The translations under genes were made by a program, and so were the position numbers. The notes under the pieces were generated by a model. That model saw only the letters and a program-made list of their open reading frames with translations, was not told the DNA's origin and made no database searches. Shown piece by piece: positions 10,701-62,013 of a stretch of 64,000 nucleotides of DNA. Each line of letters starts with the position of its first letter. The first letter of the stretch is position 1. The stretch comes from Sphaerolaimus hirsutus (lineage: Eukaryota > Nematoda > Chromadorea > Monhysterida > Sphaerolaimidae): NCBI GenBank assembly GCA_964036195.1, contig OZ038453.1, positions 14,669,206 through 14,733,205 of the forward strand. Reading direction: 5' to 3'.

Positions 10701-13700
10701 ACAAGGAAATTGGTAAGTGGTGGGGAAAGTTTTACTTGTCAAATCATCAGACAAGTGGACTTCTGACTAGGGTTGGCCGATGTTTTTTTTAAAACGTTTT
10801 TTATTAAAAAAACGTTTAAAAAAAACAAACATGACGTCCAAAATGTTTTTTTAATTTTAAAAAAACATCGACCAAAATTTGTAGTACTAAGCACTAGGTA
10901 TTTTGCAAAATTTTTGCGCGCAAGCGTGCAATTTCACACACAAATTGACATTGGTGGTTGTTTTCATTGGTTTTGTGGCATTTTTAGTATCAAAGTATCC
11001 ATTTATATATGCTACCATGGGTTGATAAGCTGTCATATGTCGGTGTAGTATATAATATTGAGGTAATGTGCTTCCATGTACCTCCACAGTGTGTAACTTC
11101 ACTCCCAAAGTAACAACCTCCTTTTATAACGTTGTTTCATCACTATTCCGTGCCAAACTTTACCTGAAGTCACGAACATTCGACTATAAGGCGATATACG
11201 AACGTATCGACAAAAAATTTTTTTTTTGACAAAAATCACCACTTATAATGCTATCCCATGGCTCAACAGCCATTATATGGTCATATATAACATCACAGAG
11301 TATTGTCACTGTCTGATATACCTATATATGTTGACACAAGGTCAAATCTGGGAGCTATTAAAAAAAAACGTTTTTTTTTCCAACCTTACGCCACTTTTCC
11401 CGTCACTTTCCCACTTTCTGAATTTGCACCAGCCATCTTTTAGAAGTCTGAATGGAATCGGTTTCCAAAGTTCAAGTATGGCTATGTCATTCCCTGCCTG
11501 ACAAGGCCATTTGTGCCTGTGATTTTTGACATTTTTCTCCTTTTTTCATTGCACATTGAGTTCCAAACCAAAACCTACCCTTCAGACACATAGGCTTTGC
11601 TCACTTTTATTCCACCATTTTTCACATTGTCTAAGACTTGGTCTGTGTCAGTATTTTGTCCAAAAATGGCCAACATGCCTTGGCCTCTCCCAAATATTGT
11701 GCTGAAACGTTTTTTACGCGTGTATAATATTGTGAATCTTTCACGGGGCAGTCCCGCACCCTGTAAAGTTTCAAATGTCAAACGACTTTATCAGATGTCA
11801 TGCAAAATGCCAGAAATGCTCTAGTAAAATCTTTTCCTTTTTAATGTTATTTGACACTTGGCGTAAGAATTACACTACAGGGCACGGGGCTGTCACCTGG
11901 TGCCTGGTGCCTTTTTATGACGCCAGCTTTTTTTGAAGTATTTCGTTACCTTTTACCCTAAACTCATTTTAAATATACCGTATATCCTCGAATTTTGTCA
12001 GTGAAGTAAGTTTTTCGTTTGACTTTTTGACTTGGGTAATTTTTTCCTTACTCGGCTGAAAGGGGCGGTTAATTAGTTTAGTTTAAACATGTGGCTAGTT
12101 CCGCAAATTGAGAAGTGATAAGTAAAATGGCAAATGCGAAGTGAAATGGTAGAAGCGAAGTGAATTGAGAAGTAAAACGGCAAACGCGAAGAGAAATTAC
12201 TTTTTATTTTTTATGCTTCACACACAATTGACAATTTACTTGCCATTTCACGTCAATTTTGCCATTTTATTTCGCTTTTGCCATTTTACTTATCAATTTG
12301 CGGGGCTGGCACCTGGCTCGCTGAATCGGATAAATGTGCAGTTGTGCAGTGTATTAATTTGCCGCGTAACTATCCCGGATTGAGTTCTCTTTATTATCGA
12401 TTCATACCGGAACGCTGCAAAATATTCAAAAATATGTAGAAGTTCCTCCTTTAATTACCCCCTCGAATAAGTCAGACGTCTGCCATAAAACATTTATCTA
12501 GGGAAGTTATTCAAAAATACCTATACGGTAATTATCTCGACCGACTTGTTTTTATTTTCACAATCTTCCATTTTTTCGTTCGCCTGGACACAATGCGCGG
12601 CGGTGATCACGTGCCATCTGTTTGTGGAATTCAGATTGGGGAAAATTGGGCAAATTGGGGAATTTGGCGGCGCACACACTAGTTGACACTCGTGTGTCAA
12701 CTGGTCTGTGTCAACTCAGATTTCGGCTTCACGTGTCGCATGGAGATAACCAAATGCACATGCGGCAATGTTGAAAAATAAATATTGGCAATAAATAATA
12801 AAAATCGGCAAGTGCATTGGAACAGGGGCGGATTTTTGAGCGGGGGGGCTGCTTGTTTACGGAGGCCGGCGAACGGGGGGGGGGCTCAGCCCCCCCCCCG
12901 CTAAAATGTTAGCCACAGAGTGGCGGAATGGCGCCATGGCGCTGGCGCCATTCGTAGGCGCCACGCCATGGCGCCATTGGCGTTGGTGCCAGCGCCATGG
13001 AACACTGTATATGTAAATATACATACAAAAACAGCAAAAAGCACAATATTGAGTGTATTTATGATTATTTGTGGCTACATGGAGCAAATCTGATTATAAT
13101 ACCTTAAATCTGGCGAAAAATGCGCGCATGCGCGCAAAAATTTTTACGCTGACGTTGAAAAACTCGCATTTTCCGGTCACTTTCTGGTCTCACCCCTGGA
13201 AGGAGGGGGGGCTGCAGCCCCCCCCCTGGATACGGCCCTGCATTGGAAGATCGCTGCGACACGTGAGGCTGAAATCTGAGCTGACACAGACTAGTTGACA
13301 CACGTGCGTCAACTAGTGTTTGGGCTGCCTTTGTTGAATTTGTTCTTTTTCTTAATTTTCATTTGTCGCTGATCACCTGTATCTTGAATTGTGAATTCAC
13401 TTAGCGCTTAAACTTACTCAATTTTACTAAATTTTTACAGCAGCAAAATACAGCAATTTTACTAAATTTTACTAATTTTAGTCCGCTTGCGGAAGGATCA
13501 GGCCTATTATGCATGTAAACCCATTACGCATCTACATCCATTATAGACACATTATACCCGCAGGGGTAAGAAAGGGGGCGGGTTCCCCACCCCAAACTGC
13601 CCAGCTATCTATCTATACCGGAGGCAATTTTTTTCGGTTACTTTTCTCAGAACAGAACCCCCCCCAAGTAAATTACCTAGCTATCTAGCTATCTGGATCG

Positions 13701-15762: not shown

Positions 15763-18182
15763 TAGTGATGTAAAAGCGCCATGGCGCCATTGGCGCTTGG
15801 CGGCACGACAACGAAAAGTGCCATGACACTTTTGACGCTTGGCGCTGGCGCTATTTTACCCGGCGCTAGGAACAATGCTGCTCACTGTGCTTTTTATGCT
15901 ATGAAACAAACCCTTCTGTCAATTAATGACCAGGCGATAAAAGCTCGGCCACCACCATTTCTTAAGAAGAATTCAACCTTAAAATGCCATGGCGCTCCTG
16001 GCGCTTGGCGCCATTTTGCTGTGGCGCCATTGCCGCTTGGCGCTAGAGGTCGGAAAAGCGCCATGGCGCTTTTGGCGCTTGGCCCTTAAGTAGTGATGTG
16101 AAAGCGCCAAAACAAAAAGCGCCATGGCGCTTTTGGCGCTTGGCGCCTTTTTGCTGTGGCGCCATTGGCGCTTGGCGTTGTGCTACGGGAAAGCGCCATG
16201 GCGCTTTTGGCGCTTGGCGCTATGATGTCGTGGCGCCATTGGTGCTTGGCCCTGGTGTTTTATAAAGCGCCAAAGAAGCGCCAAGTAGTACCAAAAAAAT
16301 CATTTTTCTTATGTAAAAAGACCTTGCCTGCATGAGTTACATAAGTAAATGTGTTACTGTAAGTGTGTTACAGGAAGAACAAACCCTCTACTTGCTTATT
16401 TTGTAAACCATGTCCATGCAATTGCAACGATATTCAAAACTTTTACCAAAAAATGGGACTACACGCACTACGTAGTTTTCAACGACATTTTATGTCAACT
16501 GGTTTTCGTCCCAATTCAAGGCTTGATGACGAGCCGACGAACAGCGTTCAAATGCATAGTGTTGCATTATATTGTAAATGAAGTTGTATTGATGCTGTGG
16601 AATGAAGTACGGCATGATGTACCTACCGTATTTCCTCGAAATACACCCAGGGGGTTTATTTTTTCAGGGTGCAAATTTTGAGGGGAGTTTCGAGGGGGGC
16701 TTATCCGGAGGGAATTTTTATGAAGGGTCGTAGTAAAGTATCGTTTTTTTGTACCCAAAACGTAAGGAGATGACCAAATAGGATATATTGTGGCCATATT
16801 ATCATAGATCGTTCCATAAACAACGCCATGTATAGCTGCGATGTAAATTCACAGCTGACAAAATATATCATGTTCATTGGATACATGATCTACCTTACTC
16901 CAGACGGGTGTATTTCGAGGGGGGGGGGTTAATTGAAGAGGGTATTTCGAGCAAATATGGTATATGTGTATACAACGCTGGATAGTGTTACTTGTCAGCA
17001 AGCTTTGAATTGGGATGGAAACCAGTTGGCAAACAAATAGATAAATAGATGCACTTTGTGCAGCAAAATTTTCTGGCGTGGGCGTTATTGGCGCTTGGCG
17101 CCATCATCCCCCGGCGCCATTGGCGCTTGGCGCCATGGTGAGGGAAACCCATTATTTAACCACAGCGACTCGTAACCCATCGTCTCGTAAGCCAAAGTGC
17201 ATCAAGATTTAACCCAAAGTACCTCGTCTCGTAAGCCGCAGCCAATCATTCGACTCGTCACCCAAAGTGTGTCATTATTTAACCCCACTGTGTCATTATT
17301 TAAGCCACGAGTACATAGTACAAATTTTGTGTCATTATTTAAGCCGTGTGTACACATGTATTTAGTTCATATTTGTGTATTTTTTGAATGCCAGCGAATA
17401 CATAGCACTGATGTGCTGGTGCGGAACCAACGTAAATATGTGTTTACATGGTGACCAATGATACTTGCAATGTGGGATGAACAAGGGAAATAGATATATT
17501 TATCTAGGTAACTCACAAATTTCATTTCAAACATATCGCGCCCACTTTCAAATCAAATCAATTTTATTACCCCCCTTGAAAAATGCATAAGAAACATGCA
17601 ATGGAAGATAATGTGGATAGAAATGAACAGCTTTTTCTCTCCATTTGATACTCTCATGCATGAAACACTCTTTATGTCTGTTGTCCATTTCGCTTTATTA
17701 GGACCGAAAGTATCCATGATCCACTTACTCGAGCCCACCAGATATTGACCACAGATGTCCAAGTGCATTAGCCAAAAACGACTGATCTTACCGCCACATG
17801 TAATGTCTATACATCCATCTTATATGTATACATGTTATGTATTTACCTGTACTGCGGCTTACGAGTCGACACATTGGGTTAAATAATGAGGCACAATGGC
17901 TTAAATGATGACACACTTTTTCACGTTAATTGTGGCTTAAATGTCGCCATACTTTGGCTTACCTAGCGAGGTACTTTGGCTTTACAGTCGATGGGTTAAA
18001 TCTCGGGTAGCTTAAATCTCGCTATACTCTCGCCATGGTCTAGAAAAGCGCCATGGCGCTTTTGGCGCTTGGCGCTTGGCGCTCGCATGCCAAAAGCGCC
18101 ATGGCGCTTTTGGCGCTTGGCGCCAAAAGTCTGGCGCTTTTCACATCACTACCCTTACGTCATGGCGCTTTTTACATCACTA
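15763..18182. mobile_element. GGCGCTTTT-arm hAT-like element, outer copy of a nested pair
   Basis: Starts TAGTGATGTAAAAGCGCC and ends GGCGCTTTTTACATCACTA. The flanking octamers CGTAGGTG and CATAGGTG match at seven of eight positions. Most of its length is a second element of the same family (16091-18151). Confidence 0.75.
16091..18151. mobile_element. GGCGCTTTT-arm hAT-like element, inner copy, carrying further nested repeats
   Basis: Starts TAGTGATGTGAAAGCGCC and ends GGCGCTTTTCACATCACTA, with octamers CCCTTAAG and CCCTTACG on either side. It contains a TACCGTATTTCCTCG element (16624-16962) and a foldback whose arms (about 17140-17350 and 17860-18025) repeat ATTATTTAAGCC, CTCGTAACCCAT and their complements around a unique centre. 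The open frames inside (for example 17553-17768 minus) were not recognised as known proteins. Confidence 0.7.
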
Positions 18183-22383: not shown

Positions 22384-25300
22384 ATGTCATCCGAAATCTT
22401 GAAAAAATCGTACAAAAGTAATCCGTCGAAGGAATCAAAAAAATCGTGCACCAAAGTCACTATGACGCTGCAGCAACCACCGGTGCGAATTCGAATTGAC
22501 CCGACAGTTTTTTCGGGTTGCCCGATTTTTGGTAAAATAAATGCAGCCTGATTCATTTCATTCTGCCTGCACAATAATTTACAGCGGAAATCTCGATAAT
22601 AAGTTGACGGATACCTCATTCCTGTAAACTCAAAATGCTCTCAAAGCTGAGTTTTCGAAATTTTGGTAGTGAACTATCTAATGTGTGTAGTCAAGTTTTT
22701 GAGATTTTTGAAGTCCGTGGATGAAACCTTGTAAATAAAATGTCCAGACAAATGTCAGGTGCCACGTGACGTAAATATGATACCCGATAAAACTCAAAAA
22801 TACTCGATCTGTCGCACTTAACCAAAGCGCCTAGCCCTCGGTGATATTCACATTTATGTAGAAGAGCACAATTCGGGTTACCCGACAAAAAACCTGTCGG
22901 GCAAATTGAACATCTTAGGATGCAGCAGTCGGGCACCGCGACCATGTCGGGCGGCCACAGCGGGGACAGCCACGGGCAAAGTTTGGTCGCGGAAGTCACC
23001 CCGTCGGAAGTGAATGAGTTGAATGAGGTTTGATTTGGGTGGGGGGTTATATGAAGGTGGTAGATTTTGAGTGGAAAATTGACATTTGAAAAATCGAGAA
23101 ATCGACATGTGTCTACTATGTATGTTTTGCTGTTAAATACATCACGCGCTCTATATTCACTTAAGGGGCACTAAAAGTCTTGTTATTTTAGTATACAGGT
23201 TTTTCAGAGAGATTTTATGTTAGGTATTCTCTGAGAGATTTTTTATACTACCTACATTTAATTATATTTTAGAAAATCAAAAAACCAACAAAAACTACCC
23301 ACGCTAGGTGTTAAGTACTTCACTCTTGCTTCACTACTCACTGGTGATGGAATGGCGCCATGGCGGTGGCGCCATTTGAGGGCACCACGCCATGGCGTCA
23401 CCGCGCCCACTTTCTGAAAGGCGCCATGGCGCTCTTAGCGCTTGGCGCCCTTTTTCCGTGGCGCCCTTTGCGCCTGGCGCCCTGCACTAAAAGGGCGCCA
23501 AAATGGCGCCAGCAGGGTTTCAAGTGATTGCTGCATAAATAAAAAGAAATAAAAAGCGTGTGCGTGAATAATCGAAATTCGCCGGAAAAATCGACATTGT
23601 ACGGGTATGTTCTGAAAATCTGTTCTGCATTGCCAGGAACACAAACCGTAGCTTTTATAGTTAACGTTACCTTTACACTCAAAATTGGGGGGGGGGGTAT
23701 TTCGAGGGGGGCTGATATTTACAGGCGCGTGTTGTGAGAAAGTGTGAAGTAACGTCAATGTGAAGTACCTAACTTCACTCGTCAATGCTTTTTATAAATG
23801 ATGTGCCCGATTTAATCGTGATTTTTCGGTAAGTGAGCATTTGAACCGTTAGAGTAAAAGCGCACTTCAATATTTCCACACGAAAACCCAATAAATCCGC
23901 ACAAAATCCACAAGCTCGCACAAAAAAACCTCCACTGAAAAAAACAACAACTAAAAAACGGACATCGAAAATTCGACCAGTCACTGGAACTTGACCGGAC
24001 CCCCGCACCCTCAAAATTGACAAAAAATGGTAAAAATTAACGCAACTAAACCGGTGCGAGTGGCAAACAGGGGCCCCCCTCAAGCTTCAACGCAGTCCCA
24101 CTCGGAACGGAAATCTGATCCCGATCTAGTTACGAGGGTGAGTTGAATTGGTGTTTATGGTGGGGGGGGGTTGGTATTTGATAAGTAGTGTTCGATTTTC
24201 AATTTCAATTTGAGATGAAACATAAAATCTCGAAGGCACTAGTGATGGAAAAAGCGCCAGGGGTGTGGCGCTAGGCGCCATGGACTTTTTTTGCAACCAG
24301 CGCCAATGGCGCCATCAAGAGCGCCTAGCACCAGAAGCGCCATGGCTCTTTACATCACTAGAAGGCTCCAATGGCCCTACACACACTAGTTTTCACCGTG
24401 ACTGATGTGAAAACTGACATGGCGACATCCAGCCTACTCTTATTGTATGCTATGTGTTTTAGTTTTCAAATTTTCAATTTTAAGCTTTCATTGATTTAAA
24501 TTCAAATTTAACTTAAATAAAATCATTCAACCGTGTTCATTAATTTGCATTTGAAAAAATTTCAGTTTTCATACGAAGTCACGGTGAAAACTAGTGTGTG
24601 TAGGCACAATGTCATCGAAACCCCAACTTGTGACGCCACCGGCAAAACGATGAATACGTCACTGGACACTGGTGATAACTGGCACCGCAGAGGTAACTGT
24701 GCTACTTTAGATGGGGGTACCGCGTCTGGGGCCAGTTCCTCAAAATGAGAAGTGAGACGTGAAATGGCAAAGGCAAAGTAAAACAATAAAAATAAAAAGT
24801 AATTTCCCTTCGCTTGTGCCATTTCACTTGCCAATTCACTTGCCGTTTCACTTCGCCTTTGCGCTTTTACTTCGCCTTTGCCATTTCACTTCTCATTTTG
24901 CATAACTGGCACCTGGACTCCGGCCCCGGTGCCCCGGTGTCTTTCTATTGCCAGTGTCCTCATCCGACTATCTACCCCTCATTCAACCCCCCTAACCCCC
25001 ATTCAAGCCCACCTGACCTCACCCCCTCATTTACCCCCACCCATTCTTTATTCAACCCAATCCCCTTATAATTGAACCCCCCACCCAGCAAAACCCGAAA
25101 GAGCCCAGCTATGCGGAGCCCCTGCCAGTGGCCTTTGTGTCCACAGGCTACGGTCCCGCGGGGGTCACCATATGTTGGATCTTTTGGGGGTGCGTATGGA
25201 TGTCGGGTCGTGTTAACTTGGGGGTAGGGGTAGCTGGATAACGTGTATTCCCGAATTGACCCCTCCCCAAAGAAAGACGCCCCTGAGGCGGCCACAGACC

Positions 25301-28300
25301 CAGTAAAATGACCTGTAAGATGTAGAATGTTCTGTAACATGTAGAATGTTCTGCAAAGTGTCATGCCAAACGTCAAATTTTTATTTGATCATCTGATATT
25401 TTACAGGATACTATACATAATTTTTGACACAGCACGACATTTGACATTTGACAGGATATTTTCAATGGTATATTTTACATGACATTTTACATTGCGTAGC
25501 GAGGCATTTCAAGGGAACGGTTTATTTTTCCCCAGCTCGCTCAGACCTTCAGGGTATTTAAGGGGTGGCGTGGGGGGGGGGGTGGAGGCTGAATTCGAAG
25601 GTGGAGTAATTCGAGTAAATACAGTATCGCATAGTGTTCAAGACTAATCCTTTCACAATCATCACATAACTGGCCATCTATAAGCGTGTCGGGGGGGTGC
25701 ACTGCCCCCCCCCCCTGGAGACCCCCTCGGCGGAAGCACGAGGGCCGGGAGTGCCGGGGGTGGCACCGTCTGCCCCACCGCAGTGGGTCAAATGGACAGT
25801 CACGGACAGAGCACGGTGGGAGAGAGGACGGTCGATTCTGTTCGCGAGGAACTGGTGGAGGTTGTCTATTGCTTGGGTGTGGGGGTGTCTTGGCTAGGTG
25901 CCACGTGGAGGGTGTGGTGGTTTGGCACTATGCCAAGTGGAGGTTTTATTTCTGATGTGGATTGGGTGTGAGGTTGTGGATTTGGTTCGGTTGTGGTGGT
26001 TGGTTAGGTATTGCCGTGTTTGAGAATAATGGTAGTTTGTGGAATGATCACTGGGACAAGATTATCTGTTTTTGATAAAATAGATAGGTAAACTTTTTCG
26101 GGTTTCATCGCTTGAATTTCCGATAGTGTATTTTCGTGAAAAATATGTTTTCGAAATACAAAAATACTGTAGTCAAAAAACTAATCAAAAAACGTTTTGT
26201 TTGTTATTCTGTCTGATAAAATTGTGAGAATGAATACTTTGTATTTTTTCTACATAAATGATAAAACCAAAAACTATAACAACAAACAAATAAAATTATA
26301 CTCTTACCTACTAATTGTGTCATTCAACATCTCAGCACAATCACAACAAAAACTGCCCAACCCCCCAAAAAATCCCCCACATACTTCCACAGATTTGCAG
26401 ACTCTCCCCACCCAATGAACTAGTCCTAATTGGCCCCGAGGGATGTTCGAAAACGGGGAAATTGCGCGTGCATTTCGCCCCGCCCCCAAGCACCAAGGCG
26501 AGTGGCATCAGCGACATTTACACGTTCAAAGTGAAGGCTACCAGGTGCCACTCCCGGGCCTTGTAAACTGCCCTGTAAAATGTCAAGTGGCATGCAAAGT
26601 GTCAAATGTCATGTAAAATGCCATGGGAAATGGAAAACGTTCGTTTGCCAGTTTACACGGCATTTTCCATGACTTTTGACAATTTGCATGACATTTGACA
26701 TTTTACCGGGCTTTTTACAGTGTCCGGGAGTGCCTCAAGAAACCACACGTTCCGAATTAGGCCAGTTTTTGGTTTGGTAGATAGGAGATTTGACAGGACA
26801 CCCATTGATATTAGCGTGGGTTGGGGGATTTGGGAAATTTTATACGATTCCGTAATTCAAATTTGATTATCGGCTTTGCTTCCGTTTTCATTTTATTGTC
26901 GCCCGAATTGAGACTTTTACATTGACTACTTAAGTACAACTTCACTTATCATATAAGGTATACTTATCACTTCTAAATTTTCGGAATAGGTTTTCGTCGG
27001 CCAGTCCCGTGTTCTGGAAAGTGACATGTAAAGTGTAAAATATCAGACAAATTTGCAAAATGCGAAAAATTACTGGGAATATTACATTCACATGATATTT
27101 TACAAATTTATCTCACATTAAATTTTATGTATCAACATTGTGCATGACATTTTACAAATCTTGTCTGATATTTTACATCGAATTATACATTTAGAGCATT
27201 TAGAAAGGTGCGGTTCGTAGCCCCAGGCAACAAAAGCGCTTTTCAACTTCTTCAAAGTGCTCCCAAAACCCTGAAAACAATCTTCCACAGGTGACCAAAC
27301 TAACCCAAGATCGCTGGCAGCGGCCCAAAAAACCTTCGAGCACGAAAAAATCGTCAAAACCAGACAGAATCACGCTGGTTTTCGCGCATTATCCTCGGAA
27401 AAACGACGCGCCGCGGAGGCCCATGGCGCTGTGGCACCGCGAATGTCCGCACAGGTGCCAATCCCGGACCCTGTAAAATGCCCTGTAAAATGTAAAATAT
27501 CATGCAAAGTGTAAAAAGTCACGTAAAATGCCCTCCAAAATGGCAACGTGGTTGCCATTTTGCAGGGCATTTTACATGACTTTTTACACTTTGCATGACA
27601 TTTAACATTTTACAGGACATTTTACAGGGTCTGGGACTGCCCCCAGGCCGGTCGAGACGGAATGCCAGAAAATGAGTGTCGTTGTCAGGTGGGTGGGTTT
27701 TTTTTCGAATATGGGGTTAGATAGGGTTGGCAATGGTGGGTAATCCCCTTCCCCCGCCCCAACGCTTCAGCCATTTTTTATATCCCTGGCACCATTCAGC
27801 TTTCTGCCTACCCTAAAGCAAATTGTTTGGTTAGTACACCATGAACCCCCCCCCCCCCTCCCCCAATTGTCCAATTACTTTTATGTGGAACAATTTGAAC
27901 AAATAGAAAATTATTTAAAAAGGCGGAGTCGAGTAAATACAATCAATGCAAGTTTCGTGCATGTAACCATTTGTCATTTTTGGGAATTTTTTATTATTAA
28001 CGATGACGTCATGATGGAATGTTTCGTTTGGTAAAAATGCATAGCACGCGGTGCGCGGAATGTAAATATTTACGCAACTTCTCCATCACTGGAAAAAAAT
28101 AAATTCGTGAAGTGTGTGGAAGCGGCCTCTGTGAAGACACGTCTGTGAACTCTGTGGCTTCCACACACTTCACCTGTCTTCACGACGGACCAAATTCGTG
28201 GAGTGCACTTCACGAAGCATTGCGGCATACTTTGCCTGGGGCCAGTTCCGCAAATTGAGACGTAACATGGCAAATGCGAAGTGAAATGAGAAATGAGAAG

Positions 28301-30511
28301 TGAATTGCAAAAGCGAAGGGAAATTACTTTTCATTTGTATCTTTTTACTTAGCTTTTGCCAATTTACTTGCATTTCACGTCGCTTTTGCCAATTTTCTTC
28401 TCAATTCACTTCGCATTTGCCATTTTACTTCTCACATCTCAATTTGCGGAACTGGCACCAGGTCCGGGTACGGTGAAGCGTACGGCGGCGCAGGGAAGTG
28501 TCTTCTCGCCGACCCGGTGGGTCCGCGTGAAGTCACTTCACGAAACTTCACCACTCATCACACATGCACACACCTATTTTCTGCAGTTCATTACTCACCC
28601 GCGCGCAGGCAAGTCGACGGGCCCTACGCCACCGGGTCAATCAGAACTGCGGTGCGCGCGCGCAGCGACGCTCCGGTCACCTCTGCCATCACCAAGACTG
28701 AGTAAGCTTTTCCTCGCTCACATTTGGGGTCGTTGATTGCCGCTGTGCAAGAAAGTCTACCGTATACCATCTGAATGATTGAGCAGAGATTACTTTCTGT
28801 CGCTTTGATGAATATGTCGCGCCTACACACACTAGTTAATGCAGCAACTTCAAAAAATTGGACTTGAGTTTTTTACACGCCAGGAAAAATGTCTTTAGCC
28901 TCCTGATCGGGAGCAAAAATCTATGTCTCCCCTGTTAACGTGCGACCTGTGTTAGGGTATACATGGGTGAATTCTTGTAGATTAAGGTGCCTTTATTCCG
29001 CATCTCGATTTTTAGCTTTCTCGGTGCATTGCCGCTCATTTGACAGCCATTCAAAGTCAAATTTCCGATGGAAAAAAGTCTTTAGCCTTTATGGGAAAAC
29101 ATTAAAACAAAGAGAGAAAACAAACGATGAAGAAAACCTGCATTGCTAAAATATTTATCACTTATTCACAAATTTGAATTAAAAATGGTTTAAAACACCC
29201 GATAGCCACTGCGATCTCACACTCACTGTGATTTTGACAATTGTTTGCCTTTGGACAGCAGACAAATATCGACCCGGCATGATGCATATTTTTGAAGTAA
29301 TGAACGAAACCAAATTGTTCGAAGTTTCATAGCAAAGTATTGTGTAGGGCAATCCCCTCCCCCAATTACCTAAGCACATAATTTATCACATTATTAAAAA
29401 CTTTCAATCTGCAAAACTCATCCCTAAACACAGCGAGATAGAAGTGAGACAAAAATTATCAGCAGACAAGACTCAGCCTTTTACTCAAGCAGAATCCATT
29501 CCAAGTGATGCTTGTACCACAGCTAAGCCGACTGGTCAGTGGGGGGGCTTTTTATTTGAGGATATATGGTATGTTCAAAGGCAAACAATTTATCAGAGTT
29601 CGTTTACTAATTGGGTGAGGTCCAATTTACACTCGTACCTCCTTCCGGAGAATGAGTGCATCACCAAAACACTCATACCTAAGCCTAAGCCTAAGCAGAG
29701 CCTAAAATATTGTGAAAATATCACAAATTTGTATGTAAGGCATATCCAAACCAAATAAATGTGAAGAACAAACCGTATCCAAATCAAAAATACCAATCGA
29801 ATTTTTGGCACATTATCAAAAATCGTGAAAAAGAATGCCGATGAATTGAATCACATGTTCAAATGATAAAATTATGGAAAGGTTGGTGGTAAAATGTGGA
29901 AAATTTTGTGAAAAAATAGAACGGCACCTCCAATAGAACAGCAAGTAGAATATTTGATGAACAAATAGAGCAGCACACTCCTTTGAGAAAAAATCTGGTA
30001 TACTCGGCAGACACGATACTCTACAAACAGATAGGAGTTATGTCTTTGGCTGGCAGACGGCCAGCCGAGAACTTATGGAAGACGAGATGAAGACAAAGTG
30101 ATGACCATCAAGACGACGTGATAGCGAGAGATGATGATGGCGACGAAAGGGATCACGTCATGATGGAGTGTTTCCTCCGGGAAAATGTACGGCGTAATGT
30201 CATTCGAGTATACAATCCAAAAATTCCAAACCTTCCCACTTCAATTTTCACATCTCCTCACCCCCACAGTTCTCCCAGATGACAAAACCTTGCCCAAAGA
30301 GGAGGAAAGTGGTGAAGAAAGTGAAGAGGAAAGTGAAGAGAGTGAAGAGAGTGAAGAGGGTGAAGAGGAAGAAGAAGCTTCAAGTGAAGCGTCAACAAGT
30401 GAAGCAGCTACAACTGAGGCAACTACAACTGAGGCAACCACAAGCGCATCTGGCACGTCCGTGAAGCCTGGCGGCTGGGTGCTGCGCATTACCCGCGACA
30501 CCGTTGTTTAG
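22384..30511 (+). CDS. Unrecognised multi-exon gene X with acidic Ser/Glu-rich C-terminus
   Basis: Function not recognised. The 3' half chains in phase: 26393-26544 (or from 26401), 26740-26815, 27291-27454, 27647-27688, 28609-28701, 29434-29534, 30270-30511 (stop TAG at 30509). It reads ELVLIGPEGCSKTGKLRVHF ... YTFKVKATRNHTFRIRPVFG ... DRITLVFAHYPRKN ... GPYATGSIRTAVRARSD, then an EESEEESEE tract, a Thr/Ala/Glu repeat and the end GGWVLRITRDTVV. The 5' part is less certain: a possible first exon at ATG 22384 (MSSEILKKSYKSN), then GC-rich segments at 22919-23027, about 24060-24136, 25090-25160 and 25703-25860 whose frames do not all link. Two introns (26545-26739, 27455-27646) are copies of one palindromic element. 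The segments at 22960 and 25795 share DSHGQS in comparable context. The mid-region is basic and the tail strongly acidic; no signal peptide or TM segment is evident. Confidence 0.58.
24240..24361. mobile_element. Short GGCGCC-arm hAT-like element
   Basis: Starts TAGTGATGGAAAAAGCGCC and ends CATGGCTCTTTACATCACTA; flanking octamers GAAGGCAC and GAAGGCTC. It lies in an intron of gene X. Confidence 0.75.
24375..24605. mobile_element. ACACTAGTTTTCACC-TIR MITE, copy 2
   Basis: Termini CCCTACACACACTAGTTTTC and GAAAACTAGTGTGTGTAGG; interior as in 21519-21760. It is adjacent to the preceding short element. Confidence 0.78.
24716..24920. mobile_element. AAATTGAGAAGTGAAATGGC-type MITE, copy 2
   Basis: Starts GGGGCCAGTTCCTCAAAATG and ends CATTTTGCATAACTGGCACC; the arms repeat AAGTGAAATGGCAAAGGC. 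It lies in the gene X intron before the 25090 segment. Confidence 0.7.
26545..26739 (+). mobile_element. Introner-like element forming an entire intron of gene X (copy 1)
   Basis: 195 bp, starting GTGCCACTCCCGGGCC and ending CCGGGAGTGCCTCAAG. It is a long imperfect palindrome of CTGTAAAATGTCAAATGTCATG words. The exon before ends ...AAGGCTACCAG and the sequence after continues AAACCACACG. Splicing at its ends gives codon AGA and extends the frame for 25 more codons, to 26815. Without the element the two exons form one open exon. No host sequence remains inside the intron. Confidence 0.72.
27004..27190. mobile_element. Diverged relative of the introner-like family
   Basis: Contains CCAGTCCCGTGTTCTGGAAA and the palindromic ACATGTAAAGTGTAAAATAT / GATATTTTACA words. 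The ends are decayed. It sits inside the gene X intron 26816-27290 and is not itself bounded by usable splice sites. Confidence 0.45.
27455..27646 (+). mobile_element. Introner-like element forming an entire intron of gene X (copy 2)
   Basis: 192 bp, starting GTGCCAATCCCGGACCCTG and ending GGGTCTGGGACTGCCCCCAG. It is the same palindromic family as 26545-26739. The exon before ends GTCCGCACAG; after the element the frame continues GCCGGTCGAGACG for 13 codons to a good donor at 27689. The junction is phase 2, as in copy 1. Confidence 0.72.
28236..28458. mobile_element. AAATTGAGAAGTGAAATGGC-type MITE, copy 3
   Basis: Starts GGGGCCAGTTCCGCAAATTG and ends CAATTTGCGGAACTGGCACC, with arms of AAGTGAAATGGCAAAAGC words. 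It lies in the gene X intron between 27688 and 28609. Confidence 0.75.
30003..30216. mobile_element. GTATACTCGGCAGACA-TIR MITE, decayed
   Basis: The left terminus GTATACTCGGCAGACACGAT pairs imperfectly with AATGTCATTCGAGTATAC at the right. It lies in the last intron of gene X. Confidence 0.5.
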
Positions 30512-32768: not shown

Positions 32769-33882
32769 TAAACACGTTCCCGATCAAGTCCGGCCCCCAA
32801 TTTTTTATTTTACTTCTGACGTCCTATCTTCAGTTCTAGGGCGCGCCGGAAGCTGAAACGTGGGGGAGATATGGGCGTAACCCTCCTCTACTTCGCATGA
32901 ATTGGGGGGGGGTCACGGCGACCCCTTACAGGGTGGGTCGCCCTAAGTGCCAAAATATTTATTGGCTTTTTTGGTGTCCCACACAGGTCCGGCCCCCACT
33001 GAATTCTGAGCTGTGGGAGGGGTAAAAATCTAAAATTTTGGGGATGTGTTACCAACACCCCTCCCCTACTATACACTATTCAAAAATGTCAGATTATTGT
33101 GAAAAATTTCTTAAAATTTCACTTATTCTCTAAAAAACACCACCCCCAATAAATGGATGACAAAAAAATTCACGTTTTGGAACTTTTTTGTTATACACTT
33201 GAAGAGCTGGTTTAGGATACTTTAAAGGGAAGTGTTTGATGTTTAAAGTTATGTAAACAACCATACCTCTAAAATGCCTGCATTGCAAAATTTATTTGGG
33301 GGGAATTTCAAAGTGTAAATTTTGTAAATTTTTGTTCCTGCAATGATGTCATTATGATGTCATAAAATTCCCCCCAAGTAAATTTTGCAATGCAGGCATT
33401 TTAGAGGTATGGTTGTTTACATAACCTTAAATATCAAACCCTTCCCTTTAAAGTATCCTAAACCAGCTCTTCAAGTGTATAACAAAAAAGTTCCAAAACG
33501 TGAATTTTTTTGTCATCCATTTATTGGGGGTGGTGTTTTTTAGAGAATAAGTGAAATTTTAAGAAATTTTTCACAAAAATCTGACATTTTTGAATAGTGT
33601 ATAGTAGGGGAGGGGTGTTTGTGACACATCCCCAAAATTTTAGATTTATACCCCACCCACAGCTCAGAAATCAGTGTGGACCAAAAAAGCCAATAAAAAT
33701 TTTGGCACTCAGGGCGACCCATCCTGTAAGGGGTCGCCGCGACCCCCCAATTCATGCGAAGTAGAGGGGGGTTGAGCCCATATCACCCCACGTTTCAGCT
33801 TCGGGCGCGCCCTAGAACTGAAGATAGGATGTCACAAGTGAAATCAAAAATGGGGGGCCGGACTTGATCAGGAAGGTGTTTA
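32769..33882. mobile_element. Foldback element with about 540-bp near-identical inverted arms
   Basis: The left arm (32769-33330) and right arm (33345-33882) are almost perfect reverse complements; both ends read TAAACACSTTCCYGATCAAG. Markers such as TTCAGTTCTAGGGCGCGCC occur once in each arm. The short centre (GATGTCATTATGATGTCAT) is itself palindromic. No transposase was found. The right end supplies the stop codon of the adjacent receptor gene. Confidence 0.88.
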
Positions 33883-44170: not shown

Positions 44171-44358
44171 TCTGCGGTAAGGTGCCAGTCCCAGATCATG
44201 TAAAATGCCCTGTAAAATGTCAAAAGTCATGTAAAATGCCTAGTGAAATGGCAAACGGGAAGTTTACATGACTTTTGAAACTTTGCATGACATTTGACAT
44301 TTGACATTTTACAAGGCGTTTTACAGGGCATTTTACAGGGTCTGGGACTGCCTCCAGA
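44171..44358. mobile_element. Introner-like family copy outside recognised exons
   Basis: Starts GTGCCAGTCCCAGATCATG after GGTAAG and ends GGGTCTGGGACTGCCTCCAG. It is palindromic with TGTAAAATGTCAAAAGTCAT words. It retains GT at the left and AG at the right, with an AG also preceding it, but no flanking coding frame was recognised. Confidence 0.65.
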
Positions 44359-44711: not shown

Positions 44712-46271
44712 TCATTAAGTCCAGATGTTTTGTTGTTTTTATCGTCACTAGACAATGCAGACAGAATAGAAACTCGGAATAAGTCTAAAAAGTTTTCTTT
44801 CAAGTAAGTCCGCTTATCTGGCAAGCTGCAGGAGCATTTGGAAATGGTTTAGCATTTAAAAATGCTAATGATAAAAGGAGGTATGTCAATATTGGCTAGA
44901 AAATGCGATGTTTTGGGATTTTTAGTGAAGTGTCGTGAAGAGCCTAGCCTACTCATGCAATTACACAAATTTTACATGGTAATTTTTATGAGATGAGATT
45001 CTGAAGAAAAGTGAAAATTTTTAAGTAACAAACAGAAATAAATAAAATGCATTCACTAAGCGTTTTACCTCAGCTAATTTGGTCCAATGACCCTGCCCTG
45101 CACACACTAGTTTTCACACGCAATTTCGAAAACTCATAAATGAGCTTTGAACGTGTTTGAGTTTTCCACAATGAGTATTTTTAATCTCCGTCAACTGTAG
45201 TTGATGACCACCTCGTTGTAGTAAACTCAAATACGTTCTAAGCTGATTTGTGAGTTTTCGAAATTTCGTGTGAAAACTAGTGTGCGCCGGCACATTACAA
45301 TGTAATAATTATTAAATAAATATACGTAATCCAAAATAAAATCAGATTTCACCAAAGTCATTAAACTTTTGCAACTGGGGAATCACACATAAAACGTTTC
45401 TAGAATAACTAATTACCCTAAACCCTCGAATAAGACCCCAGGGGAGTTATTTGTCCTCGGAAGATTGACAGGGGGAGTTATTCAAGGGGGTAGTTATTCG
45501 AGGGGGGGGGGGGGTAATCTCAGAAAACTTGGACTTAATTCATTGTATGGAGCCAGTGTGTAAACTAATTCAATAATTTCACTGTACAACAACAACAAAA
45601 ATATGTGTATACACTGCATACACATCATGTATCTGCTGTTGCTGCTGTAGGCTAATATTCTTTTGTATTTTTGTTTGTATCGTTTTCATCCAGAGGGGGG
45701 GAGTTATTCAAGCGGGGGAGTTATTCGAGAGGGAGTTATTTTTTCCTCACCCTGCCAACAGAGGGGAGTTATTCAAGGGAGAGGGGGTTATTCGAGGGGG
45801 GTCTTTTTCGAGGATTTGCGGTACATGTTTTTTGTAAATAAGCTACCTACCCACATCCACATTGAAAAACGATTGAGCGAAAAAAGCATGTGTAGCCACA
45901 ACAAAAAATATAAAATGAAATTAATAATACAAATACAATATAGGTAATGTAAAAATACAAACATTTAATGAATGCAGGTGCCACTCACAGCCCCTGTATA
46001 AAGCCCTGTAAAATGTCAAATGTCATGCAGTGTCATAAGTCATTGAAAATGCCCTGCAAAATGGCAACTCAGTTTTACAGGGCAGGTCTACTCGACATTT
46101 TACAGGGCCTGGGAGAGCCCCCTTGTAGGTAAAAAATGTAAAAAACTCACTCCTATTTCTTGCCAACAAGCTGCTCTGTCTTGTAGCGGTAACCCTTCTC
46201 TTGAATTGTTTTTGTTGTTCATCTTCAATTTCAGACAATGTCAATTGATTGATGGGTGGAGTCTGCGACAT
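44712..46271 (-). CDS. Possible 5' part of an unrecognised gene, two exons
   Basis: Exon 1, 46271-46151, begins with ATG and reads MSQTPPINQLTLSEIEDEQQ followed by a basic segment, ending at donor A|GTGAGT. Exon 2, 44817-44712, reads KRTYLKENFLDLFRVSIL and ends AATGA|GTTAAA. The phases agree (1 into 1). Amino-acid composition and frames look coding, but no family was recognised and further exons were not found. The intron between them contains several MITEs. Confidence 0.35.
45095..45292. mobile_element. ACACTAGTTTTCACACG-TIR MITE
   Basis: Termini CCCTGCACACACTAGTTTTC and GAAAACTAGTGTGCGCCGG; subterminal TTTCGAAAACTCA words are inverted. A close relative is at 56916-57103. Confidence 0.75.
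45976..46122. mobile_element. Introner-like family copy
   Basis: Starts GTGCCACTCACAGCCCCTG after GCAG and ends GGGAGAGCCCCCTTGTAG. It lies 28 bp 3' of the first exon of the possible minus-strand gene, in antisense to it. Confidence 0.6.
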
Positions 46272-55540: not shown

Positions 55541-58127
55541 TCACCAATGAAAAAGTGCTGAGCATGAGCACCTATTTAGTCAAATGTCCATTGCCACAAC
55601 CGGCGCTATAGGTTGAGAGCTAAATATTTGACTGTGCAAAATCTTTTTGAAGTTTTTATTGAGGTTGAACTGAAGGTTCAATTTTCTGTGATATTTGCTT
55701 GATGTTTTTCACTTGTAAAATACTGTATAAATGAATACTTACTGTGGAATGATAATAATATACTGTGGTACCTTAGAGTACATTTTTTGTGCTTGCAAAT
55801 GGTAAATAAAGCCAGAATATTGCTTGAAATTAAAATAAAGCTCAAGTGATTTTTTGAGATTTTTTTCGAGCTTTGAGTGATTTTTTCAGTAAATTAATTA
55901 TATTTTCTGGAGACCTAGAGTGATTTATATATATTTATAATTTTTTCCAATATTGGAGTGATATATTTATTTATATTTTCCAAAAAAATCGGTGATTTTT
56001 TGAATGCTACGAGTGATGCTAAATACCATATTTGAAGAATAATGTTACATCACAAATTGTGCACCAAATTCACAGATAAATAGTGAGTATTGTAATTGAG
56101 TGAGGAAAAATGTATACCGTATTTCCTCGAAATACCCCAGGGGGTTGATTGTTCAGAGTGCACATTTTGAGGGGGGGTATTTCGGGGGGGGGGACGCTTA
56201 TTCGAGTTGTTTTTATTATTTTCCCAGAAAATTCTCGAGAAGAATCGTAATAAAGATGGGCTTTTACATATCCAAAACTGGTCATATACGTGATAAAACA
56301 CAACAAATTTCGACGTATAAATTTTAGAAGGGAGTTAATTCGTGTTCTACTTTTTATTCAGATAGGGTATAGTAGATCTCACTGAAAAGTCTGCAGTCGT
56401 ACGATTTTTCCATGTATACCGTAGATCCTCGAATAAGTCCCCCGGGGAGTTTTTTTTTCGTCATAGTTGTTTGAGGGGGGAGTTATTCAAGGGTGGGGAG
56501 CTATTCAAGGGGAGAGTTATTTTTTCTCATAACTTTCAGGAAAACTTGCAGGTAGGTAGGTGTGTATACACTGCGTAAGATACACACACACGTTGTTCCA
56601 GTATGCTCTCCACTCCTCACAGAGGGGGGAGTTATTCAAGGGGGAGTTATTTTTTCGTCAGAGGTTTTGACGGGGGAGTTATACAAGGGTGGGGATTATT
56701 CAAGGGGGAGTTATTTTTTCGTCAGAGTTTTTGAGGGGGGAGTTATTCAAGGGGGGCTTATGCGCGTGTTTACGTCTCGTGAAGCGATGAAGTTATGGTG
56801 TGTATAATCCACATCAAGATAAATTTGGTTCCCGTAAATATCACGTATTCCGACGTTGTCGAGGATTGAGACCTACATATTTGGTCTTTACGTCGTTTGA
56901 GTGAGTGCAAGCAATGGCCCTGCGCACACTAGCTTTCACACGAAATTTCGAACACTCATCAATGAGCTTTGAATGTGTTTGAGTTTTCCACAATGAGTTA
57001 TTTTTAATGTCCGTCAACTCCCTCATTGTAGAAAACTCAAATGCGTTCTAAGCTGATTTGTGAGCTCTCGAAATTTCGTGTGAAAACTAGTGTACGCAGG
57101 CACATAATGAGACATAAATATAGAAAGTGTGGAACAATGCAAATGAAAATGAATTGTATTTTAGCAACCCCTCCCCCCAACGATACAGTTTGGCATTTCC
57201 CTACCATTTACTCAGGTATTGTATAAAACACCTTCATTTCGATGCACAAAATGTAGAAGCGATTAATATTTTAGCACAGTGGGTAGATTAAATACGTATA
57301 TCCTCGAATAATACCACATGAAGAGTTAGTTTTTCATCAAAGTTTATTCAAGAGGGGGAGTTATTCAAGTGGAGTTTTTTTTTCATCAGAACTTTCAGGA
57401 AAACTTGAGCTTTATCATTGTAGGTGGCTGACGAATAAATAAATACTACTTAAAACTAAATGTACCTTGAAAAACACCCTCCTTGAAAACTACCCCACTA
57501 AACAACCTGACATAGAAAAAACTCCCCAGGGGACTTATTTGAGGATATACAGTCCTGTTAAATTGTATATCAAATTATGCATCATTAATTATAATAGCAA
57601 CCGAATAGCATATTTACCCAAGTAAAAAACACCTGTGCATTGGACAAACAAATTACACAAGATTTAGCCCACTTGTTATTGAAAATAAGAAACAGCATGA
57701 CCTATGTAAATACCACACAAACTTCACCCAGCCAGTATATAATCCACATGCTAAACATTAGAGGCATTATGTTAAAAAATAAAATATAACAAAAACAACC
57801 TGTATAGAATAAAGCACTAACAAATTGCAAAATGTGTCTCTGCAAACTATTACTTTGCTTGATGGTTTTCATTGGAATTTTAGAGGTTGTGTCATTTTCT
57901 GCTTGGCAAAAATTTCACTAGAATAGGTATTTCAAAAATAACAGAATCCCTTCTATTCATAAACATAGACATTTTTTATGTTCAAAAGTATCTTGTGAAT
58001 TGACCTGGTATCTCAAAGTTGATTGAGATCTTCTCCAAAAATGTATTGAGAAAGTTCTATACATTCATGTAGAAAATTATCAATAAATGTGAAATTGACA
58101 GAGGAAAAATATTTTATTTTACCTGAG
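55541..58127. other. Interval of low-complexity and MITE sequence
   Basis: Includes AGTGATTTATATATATTT-type A/T words, a TACCGTATTTCCTCG element starting near 56115, GGGGGAGTTATTCAAGG tandem blocks (56410-56770, 57300-57550) and the ACACTAGT MITE 56916-57103. No exon supported; upstream exons of the astacin gene may lie here. Confidence 0.45.
56916..57103. mobile_element. ACACTAGCTTTCACACG-TIR MITE
   Basis: Termini CCCTGCGCACACTAGCTTTC and GAAAACTAGTGTACGCAGG; homologous to 45095-45292. Confidence 0.75.
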
Positions 58128-61100: not shown

Positions 61101-61719
61101 GGTGTCACCACTTGCTTGTTGTTCATTGAGGGAAAATGTTTCTAAAAGTTGTTTTTCAAATTCATATCACTCAACACAATCAGAACACGTCACAATCACA
61201 ACAACTATGACTCGATATATTCACCATCCTTCTCCAATATCATATTCAATTCATACAAATATCATGTGTTCCACAACTCACCCAAAATGTGTCCGTCAGG
61301 GTCGCAACTTCCAAACTTCAGAATAGGTGTCCTATGGAGTCTACTCTATTGTGTTAAAATTTCATTGTGATAGCTCAACCGTAGCTCAAGCTATCGCGTT
61401 TTTCCAGCGGCAACTGAAGATGCCCACCCCTGTACTTTCGCCGTCTTTATCACTCGTAACCCCCCACAACGACTTCACATTAATAAAAGGCAACCCTCCA
61501 ATTTGCACCCAGCGCGAAGACGGTTGTTTCGCAGTCCTGGGCTTGGATTCCTTCAGACAGCCGCAACCCGTCAATCTGGAATCGAAATGCATCCCGGACA
61601 ACGAGTACGGCGTGAGTACCGCTGCGCACGAACTTTTACATGCGCTCGGATTCTGGCACGAGCAGACCAGACCCGACAGGGATCAGTATATCGATGTGCG
61701 TGGGGATTACTTTGAGATC
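58128..61719 (+). CDS. Astacin-family zinc metalloprotease (M12A), partial
   Basis: Two exons are supported. The first (about 58128-58386) encodes the end of the propeptide, including the FQGD aspartate-switch motif (58291-58302), and the start of the catalytic domain (KKWPEGKVYYK); donor AAG|GTGAAG, phase 0. The second (from 61408, or a little downstream, to 61719) contains HELLHALGFWHEQTRPDRD, the HExxHxxGFxHExxRxDR zinc site, preceded by a Cys-containing REDGCFAVLGLD segment equivalent to GCWSxVG. The central beta-sheet region (the usual NxI...AM...C segment) was not found between them and may be in the 59359-59558 gap or in unrecognised exons. The Met-turn and C-terminal domains should lie beyond 61719 but were not seen. 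The 5' exon with a signal peptide was also not identified. A secreted or membrane-anchored protease is inferred. Confidence 0.8.
58740..59102 (+). other. Long open frame inside the astacin gene, unassigned
   Basis: A 119-codon frame (FQGCMLQQIPDLKNFGTQPA..., ending CSSTF) runs between two astacin exons and stops just before an inverted repeat. It was not recognised and does not resemble the missing astacin core. It could be a repeat-derived frame. Confidence 0.25.
59105..59358. repeat. Inverted-repeat MITE abutting the assembly gap
   Basis: Arms of about 80 bp (CAACATCTCTAACTGTAGGA ... ATTTTAAAGCTTGAACATTC) are near-perfect reverse complements. The right end coincides with the start of the N run, so assembly may have broken on a further copy. 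Confidence 0.8.
59359..59558. other. Assembly gap (200 N)
   Basis: Exactly 200 unknown bases, probably a nominal scaffold gap rather than a measured length. It lies within the astacin gene. Confidence 0.98.
59750..60395. mobile_element. hAT-like element, AAAAAATCGATT-arm family
   Basis: Starts TAGGGTTGGAAAAAAATAGA and ends GCTTGCCAACCCTA; flanking octamers GTGAGGCA and GTGAGGCC differ at one position. A unique centre of about 450 bp carries short open frames on both strands that are not recognised. Confidence 0.8.
60404..60810. repeat. Inverted repeat, GGCCTATTACACATG family
   Basis: The left arm (AACCCAGTTACTTATGTAGA ... CTCATCTATACCCC) and right arm (TGTATAGATGAGTGACAGGT ... CGGGTTTACATGAGTACC) are inverted. 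Related to 13500-13886. Confidence 0.65.
60915..61432. mobile_element. CAGGGGTGGGCAAC long-TIR element upstream of the astacin active-site exon
   Basis: The arms 60915-61075 and 61273-61432 are near-identical inverted copies. The ends are CAGGGGTGGGCAACT and its complement GATGCCCACCCCTG, flanked by TA. The right arm contains GCGTTTTTCCAG, which fits a 3' splice site, and its open frame runs on into the astacin exon. Confidence 0.82.
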
Positions 61720-62013
61720 GTAAAAGTTGAAAAAATTTCGGAAAATCTGTCAAAAATGAGATATAATGATATTTTCTGAGAAATATAACCTGGAAAAAAT
61801 ATATCGCATTTGCTCGAAAACCCCCCGCCTCTCGAAACACCCCCAGGTATTTTCGAGCGAAGGAAAAAAACCCTCCTTGAAATAACCACCCCCGTCTGGA
61901 ATAACGTTCCAGAGTTGTTAAAAGGTACGTACGTTTACTCGAAAAATACGCGTACGCGAGTACGCGGTAAATACGTTTACATATACTTTTAAAAAAAGTA
62001 ACGTACTCACATG

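Follow-up and report, generated by a model that had tools for sequence, protein, structure and literature searches.

Introns that originate by insertion of transposons are said to have been described in Micromonas and Aureococcus by Huff and colleagues in 2016. As in those introners, insertion together with a duplicated target is predicted to produce a spliceable intron in the family analysed here; their hosts are other ones, and we know of no full-length palindrome among them.

Introners of DNA-transposon origin have been characterized as short repeats that fill introns, some of which hold inverted repeats and target duplications, and that survey places them in two animal groups only (Gozashti et al. 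2022, PMC9860276). One of them, from Chrysochromulina, carries the donor and obtains its acceptor from a 4-bp duplicated target, with no TIR evidence (PMC9860276). The family of this study shares with the surveyed introners the short repeats that fill introns and, with the Chrysochromulina case, a donor in the element and an acceptor in the target. It differs from them in its 3-bp CWG duplication, in a palindrome that comprises the whole element and is broken at the donor, and in its animal host. A CWG duplication is also found in the NuwaI group of animal transposons, included in the PHIS/PIF-Harbinger superfamily and described as having a TIR that usually starts with GGG (PMC4482050). Finally, DNA transposons are removed from animal mRNAs by SOS splicing (Zhao et al. 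Nature 2026, cited in PMC13247085). Such a removal is likewise predicted for the present family, but SOS splicing is reported as non-spliceosomal, whereas GT and AG appear to be favoured at the ends of this family.

Introners as such are therefore already known, and the family would tentatively represent a new, CWG-duplicating and full-palindrome variant of them; searches of the literature on introners and on Harbinger intron gain, for the most part outside subscription journals and preprints, returned no title or abstract describing it. The family was studied from a 64,000-nucleotide stretch of the Sphaerolaimus hirsutus genome (the window, C4:14669206-14733205). We estimate at roughly 0.87 the probability that the introns in question are insertions of a non-autonomous DNA transposon of ~190 bp, an introner, whose sequence provides the donor and whose duplicated target provides the acceptor.

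Two predicted palindromic introns in a gene of the window

Both introns lie on the forward strand of one gene. Copy 1 occupies 26545-26739, with the element at 26545-26736, the left target CAG at 26542-26544 and the right target AAG at 26737-26739. Copy 2 occupies 27455-27646, with the element at 27455-27643 and a CAG on either side (27452-27454 and 27644-27646). The original prediction assigned the two introns to a single palindromic family, and this is borne out by their identity of 83-84% in two 95-nt blocks and by the inverted repeat that each forms with itself (82% over 184 nt in copy 1 and 91% over 181 nt in copy 2). As it also claimed, and as can be read in the sequence, both copies are in sense orientation, preceded by CAG and in phase 2, splitting codons as AG^N (^ marking the junction); they start with GTGCC and end with AG (CTCAAG in copy 1, CCCCAG in copy 2). 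The further claim that the element fills the intron completely holds for the start and the extent, and fails for the last three bases (AAG and CAG), which correspond to the duplicated target and not to the element.

The exon upstream of copy 1, read from the sequence (26393-26544), ends in ...ACCAG in phase 2, and the one downstream of it spans 26740-26776, its 3' limit having been set by eye. Copy 2 is flanked by an exon at 27291-27454 (5' limit by eye), which ends in ...CACAG, also in phase 2, and by an open frame at 27647-27688; exons located further downstream were read by eye to about 28701. When both copies are removed, frame 2 is open over both junctions (76/42 and 83/32 codons), and the continuous frame that had been proposed is recovered, while retention of the element introduces stops in all three frames, in copy 1, in copy 2 and in the consensus of the family. 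The joined exons show a weak match to the MSP domain (E 3.2e-4, 21 bits, under the Pfam cut-off of 25.9). This match crosses the first junction only (26544/26740) and includes most of the exon upstream of copy 2; the second junction and the exon that follows it are outside the match, and the support for copy 2 as an intron consists of the open frame and the boundaries. A comparison of the joined MSP-like protein with a protein database yielded 48 candidates, none of them at E<=1, and its five matches in its own genome all fall within the window gene itself.

The family has other representatives in the window that were absent from the original prediction, some of them antisense and outside exons. 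The start motif GGTGCCANTYCCGG has 10 matches in the window with up to two mismatches, compared with a mean of 1.2 in shuffled sequence. A third full copy is found on the forward strand at 44182-44357 (element 44182-44354, followed by CAG), with no gene tied to this place. Three related palindromes are on the reverse strand: one starting with GGTGCCAGTTCCGC at 28234-28462, antisense within an intron of the window gene (left CTG and right CAG, by eye); another antisense one at 24726-24916 (CAG/CAG, by eye); and one at 12090-12317. Two degenerate copies are on the forward strand, one at 45977-46122 starting with GGTGCCACTCACAG and the other at 26998-27225 (limits by eye), within the intron that extends from 26777 to 27290. 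A scan of the window against Rfam at gathering scores gave no match.

The window holds other repeats. Another family of palindromes, whose ends resemble CACACACTAGTTTTCAC, is located at 45097-45290, 24376-24604 and 56919-57100, and two families of DDE_Tnp_4 transposons (L105 and L106) have an end that is similar to it by eye. A segment of 1.1 kb (32769-33882) matches its own reverse complement at 88% identity and lies beside a receptor-like reading frame. A receptor match at E 0.45 was obtained as well, which together with the weak MSP match hinted at a nematode without proving it. Boxes resembling GGCGCCATGGCGC are clustered at 12927-12978, 18044-18111 and 23350-23500, and an exon of an astacin metalloprotease is encoded on the forward strand at 61327-61779 (Pfam E 1.9e-16). 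The gene content, for instance this exon and the Pfam families named below, points to an animal.

Element anatomy and target duplication

The genome searched comprises 348,482,957 bp in 762 contigs. With copy 1 as the query, the best 40 of 2,574 first-look candidates were scored, and the 39 located outside the window were fetched. Two of these were left out, one for a run of N (L066) and one for being rearranged (L090), so that the alignment contains 37 fetched copies and three from the window; these 40 represent the closest matches to an exonic copy rather than a random sample. Their mean pairwise identity is 0.883, and the commonest length is 192 (23/40). Copies were oriented by their ends, GTGCCA at the start and TGCCCC at the end, with a few of them shifted by one base.

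The 192-bp consensus consists of two 96-bp arms that form a palindrome over their whole length, with mismatches at positions 2 (T versus G) and 4 (C versus G) only. The GT donor exists because of the T at position 2, which is present in 37 of the 40 copies, one of the three exceptions being due to a one-base misplacement of the window copy at 44182-44354. At consensus position 25 the two arms vary together (T/T in 21 copies and A/A in 12 of the 40), which suggests either homogenisation of the arms or subfamilies that arose as palindromes. A sister subfamily of 198 bp, which starts with CCAATCCCAAGCCCTGTAAAGTGTAAAG, is very uniform over its first 80 bases among the matches listed, and for this reason is perhaps younger. 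Regarding the element lengths of 192 or 189, both multiples of 3, common descent suffices as an explanation. The string CAG-GTGCCANTCCCGG was found in 52 stretches of IMG/VR, about the number estimated for chance, and none of the nine inspected after a loose filter was family-like.

The element is flanked by a 3-bp CWG target duplication. Target pairs in the 40 aligned copies are CAG/CAG in 20, CTG/CTG in five, CTG/CAG in five, CAG/CTG in none and other combinations in 10, one of which is an artefact of the misplaced window copy at 44182-44354. The outer two bases of the target are nearly invariant and carry little information. The middle base is concordant in 75% of the copies, compared with 48% after shuffling, and none of 2000 shuffles reaches 75%. 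The genome-wide search that had been proposed with the original prediction used a strict full-length pattern (exact ends, with 155-180 bases between the end motifs) and returned 1,127 matches: 552 CAG/CAG, 340 CTG/CTG, 172 CTG/CAG and 63 CAG/CTG; the same pattern read backwards had no match in any of the four target classes. These counts pool exonic and non-exonic copies and include the 198-bp sister subfamily. Concordant and discordant pairs stand at 892:235 (odds ratio 17, p 2e-90). That the terminal CAG could be a fixed part of the element was considered and ruled out by the shuffling of the middle base together with the counts of the target classes.

The CWG duplication implies that the CAG serving as acceptor of the intron comes from the duplicated target, and, with the donor in the element and the acceptor AG in the duplicated CAG, that excision would restore the target. 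Since CAG is CTG on the opposite strand, insertion that is blind to orientation predicts equal numbers of CAG/CAG and CTG/CTG, and strand symmetry likewise predicts equal numbers of CTG/CAG and CAG/CTG. Neither equality is observed, with CAG/CAG accounting for 552 of the 892 concordant pairs (p 1.3e-12) and CTG/CAG for 172 of the 235 discordant ones (p 7e-13), values that assume independent copies, some of which are clustered, e.g., on C9 near 25 Mb. If the larger discordant class is halved, an arbitrary step without biological basis, the comparison becomes 86 versus 63 (p 0.07). Both asymmetries favour AG on the would-be acceptor side.

The same asymmetries might reflect a transposase that inserts the element preferentially one way round with respect to CAG, instead of selection on splicing. 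Its two ends are set apart by positions 2 and 4, so that a transposase could distinguish them. Yet this would not readily account for the discordant excess of right-hand CAG (172:63), given that a new duplication has the same bases on its two sides, or for the coding domains that extend across copies in sense (see below). Orientation preference could be a partial source of the asymmetry, accounting for the CAG/CAG excess more easily than for the CTG/CAG excess; as the full explanation, we regard it as quite improbable.

Coding exons and HSP70 paralogs

For the copies outside the window, 19 joined frames in sense were chosen by eye from the 37 copies, and 11 antisense frames were scanned likewise. 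In eight of the 19 sense frames a Pfam domain matches across the joined junction with E<1e-3. These domains are HSP70 (L076, E 1.2e-28), HSP90 (L062, E 2.9e-22), Myb (L061, E 1.9e-16), Ion_trans_2 (L064, E 1.5e-9) and PAS (L085, E 1.7e-7), together with three that are under Pfam's own cut-off, Zip (L092, E 5.5e-8), a WD40-type domain (L096, E 1.6e-4) and MFS_1 (L086, E 7.3e-4). Among the remaining sense frames, the CUT_C match of L077 (0.002) is confined to one side of the junction and the PDZ match of L087 is marginal (0.051); of the other nine, seven have no match and two have weak ones (L081, 0.025; L097, 0.085). One of the 11 antisense frames matched, to NAD-GH (E 4.6e-6), antisense to the HSP70 exon, and this family is known to be a spurious one. 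All eight Pfam-supported copies are in sense, a figure that is biased towards sense because it depends on frames selected by eye (19 sense and 11 antisense scanned).

A strand-blind codon model, trained on 1,567 HSP70 codons and with calls made above the 95% control level, classified 13 of the 39 copies as exonic, 12 of them in sense and one in antisense. The antisense call (L092) is contradicted by the sense Zip match of that copy, and the model missed L062, L064 and L086 as well as both window copies. What characterizes introners, namely many similar copies whose ends fit the predicted junctions, is found here in eight Pfam-supported genes out of the 19 frames.

The HSP70 copy is the one for which empty sites are available. 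In L076 the element splits the HSP70 domain at profile position 54, and five other HSP70 exon matches, paralogs from the same genome, are uninterrupted at this position; an in-frame TAG is present in one of the five. Base by base, the DNA of three of these paralogs (L112, L113 and L114) reads through AAAAACCAG or AAGAACCAG with no insert. Insertion-free paralogous sites thus exist at the position of the putative intron, which is what its gain by insertion would predict. A near-identical paralog of L076 in an inverted duplication (L116; the pair lies at C3:29.31-29.34 Mb) has the same insertion; L076 shows a GC donor with an AG acceptor, and L116 a GT donor with CGG in place of AG.

Host introns were also inspected in the HSP70 genes. 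In three of them many introns start with GTGGGT or a similar sequence and many end in long C-runs plus CAG, and in a fourth gene (L115) the introns are AT-rich and without C-runs, all judged by eye. The TGCCCC end of the element followed by CAG imitates the C-rich acceptors of the host. These four genes are other ones than the HSP70 gene with the insertion, and their 24 gaps contain neither a palindrome nor an introner.

The introner reading of the original prediction, in which splicing is predicted from the DNA, is strengthened by the domains that continue across copies (8/19 sense frames), by the empty HSP70 sites and by the genome-wide asymmetries in orientation and on the acceptor side. 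These observations, that is, eight conserved domains in sense across joined flanks, an empty site in HSP70 paralogs and four target classes that depart from strand symmetry, also speak against the copies being ordinary MITEs with ends that resemble splice sites by chance, located in genes that are wrongly modelled or dead. Such MITEs would account for the window relatives in both orientations and outside exons, for the subset of copies without an acceptor and for the weakly recognisable gene of the window; all in all, this explanation seems to us highly improbable.

The copies without an acceptor deserve separate treatment. A GT or GC donor together with a terminal AG is present in six of the eight Pfam-supported copies. 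L085 and L096 have no AG at the target copy and show an in-frame AG 9 nt upstream. In L087 and L089, which are CTG/CTG copies in open frames that look coding, the last 70 bases contain no AG in frame. Candidate answers for copies without AG are non-AG acceptors, hairpin excision or failing genes. Acceptors with TG have been documented for human genes (PMC2374985).

Hairpin excision could also be postulated for the whole family, as a spliceosome-independent removal from the mRNA, of SOS type and with ligation by RTCB, for which the spliceosomal sites would be secondary or a later refinement. SOS splicing recognises inverted repeats, and the RNA of copy 2, the copy that was folded, is a near-perfect hairpin (-126.8 kcal/mol, z -19.8). 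The open-frame copies L087 and L089 without in-frame AG near the end, and the HSP70 paralog that lost its terminal AG, point in the same direction, as does the description of a process, SOS splicing, that takes transposons out of animal mRNAs (PMC13247085). Nevertheless, hairpin excision alone would not explain the favoured T at donor position 2 and the favoured AG side of the target. The GT or GC plus terminal AG in six of the eight copies with Pfam support also speaks against it, and we consider it unlikely as the mechanism of the family.

Transposon kinship and a route to new introns

To judge from its target and ends, the family is compatible with the NuwaI type within the PIF/Harbinger superfamily. 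It shares with NuwaI the CWG duplication and an animal host. Of its two ends, the right one, GGGGCACTCCC, starts with GGG (GGGGCA), as the TIRs of NuwaI usually do, and the left one with GTG (GTGCCA). In contrast to NuwaI, its inverted repeat spans the whole element, where the TIRs of NuwaI are given as 12-61 bp (PMC4482050), and no transposase is tied to it. An autonomous relative would share the TIRs and code for a DDE transposase together with a Myb/SANT protein. Genes for DDE_Tnp_4 are abundant in the host genome (163 matches), and no autonomous partner sharing the ends of the family was shown among the three DDE_Tnp_4 families sampled. By eye, the start of L105 and the end of L106, L108 and L109 resemble the CACACACTAG type, and no ends of introner type were found in L107.

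Three copies of one of these DDE_Tnp_4 transposons (L106, L108 and L109, on C1, C3 and C15) are 99.3-99.98% identical over 4.17 kb, which indicates a recently active transposon. Their coding region seems to carry a 198-bp relative of the introner, in sense and with CTG on the left and CAG on the right (by eye).

Insertion at a CAG target on one strand gives CAG^GT...CCCCC-CAG^, with a complete donor and acceptor, and removal of GT...CAG restores the sequence that preceded the insertion. The acceptor AG belongs to the duplicated target and follows a short C-run, like many acceptors of the HSP70 genes of the host. According to the introner reading, sense copies in exons would be removed by the spliceosome and so escape selection, and antisense copies and those at CTG targets, being without an acceptor, would be purged more often or acquire an AG when CTG mutates to CAG. 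From the target duplication and the end sequence, a transposase of NuwaI type may be proposed to mobilise the element in trans.

A more elaborate sequence of events can be imagined, in which the palindrome itself renders the element tolerable, its RNA hairpin letting the host excise exonic copies even without an AG acceptor, through SOS-type removal or non-AG acceptors such as TG, and a true intron is subsequently fixed by the T at donor position 2 and the change of CTG to CAG. We regard this as a speculative and rather unlikely scenario. If it were true, hairpin excision would be an intermediate step on the way from a transposon to a spliceosomal intron, and the copies in exons would have been caught at each of its stages, CTG/CTG, CTG/CAG and CAG/CAG.

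The origin of new introns is an old question, and in this family a symmetric transposon would become an orientation-dependent intron through one base of the element and one base of the target. As CWG is identical on both strands, the four target classes provide a test of splice-site selection that is free of annotation, and the exonic copies with and without an acceptor in open frames permit a direct test of the agent of excision.
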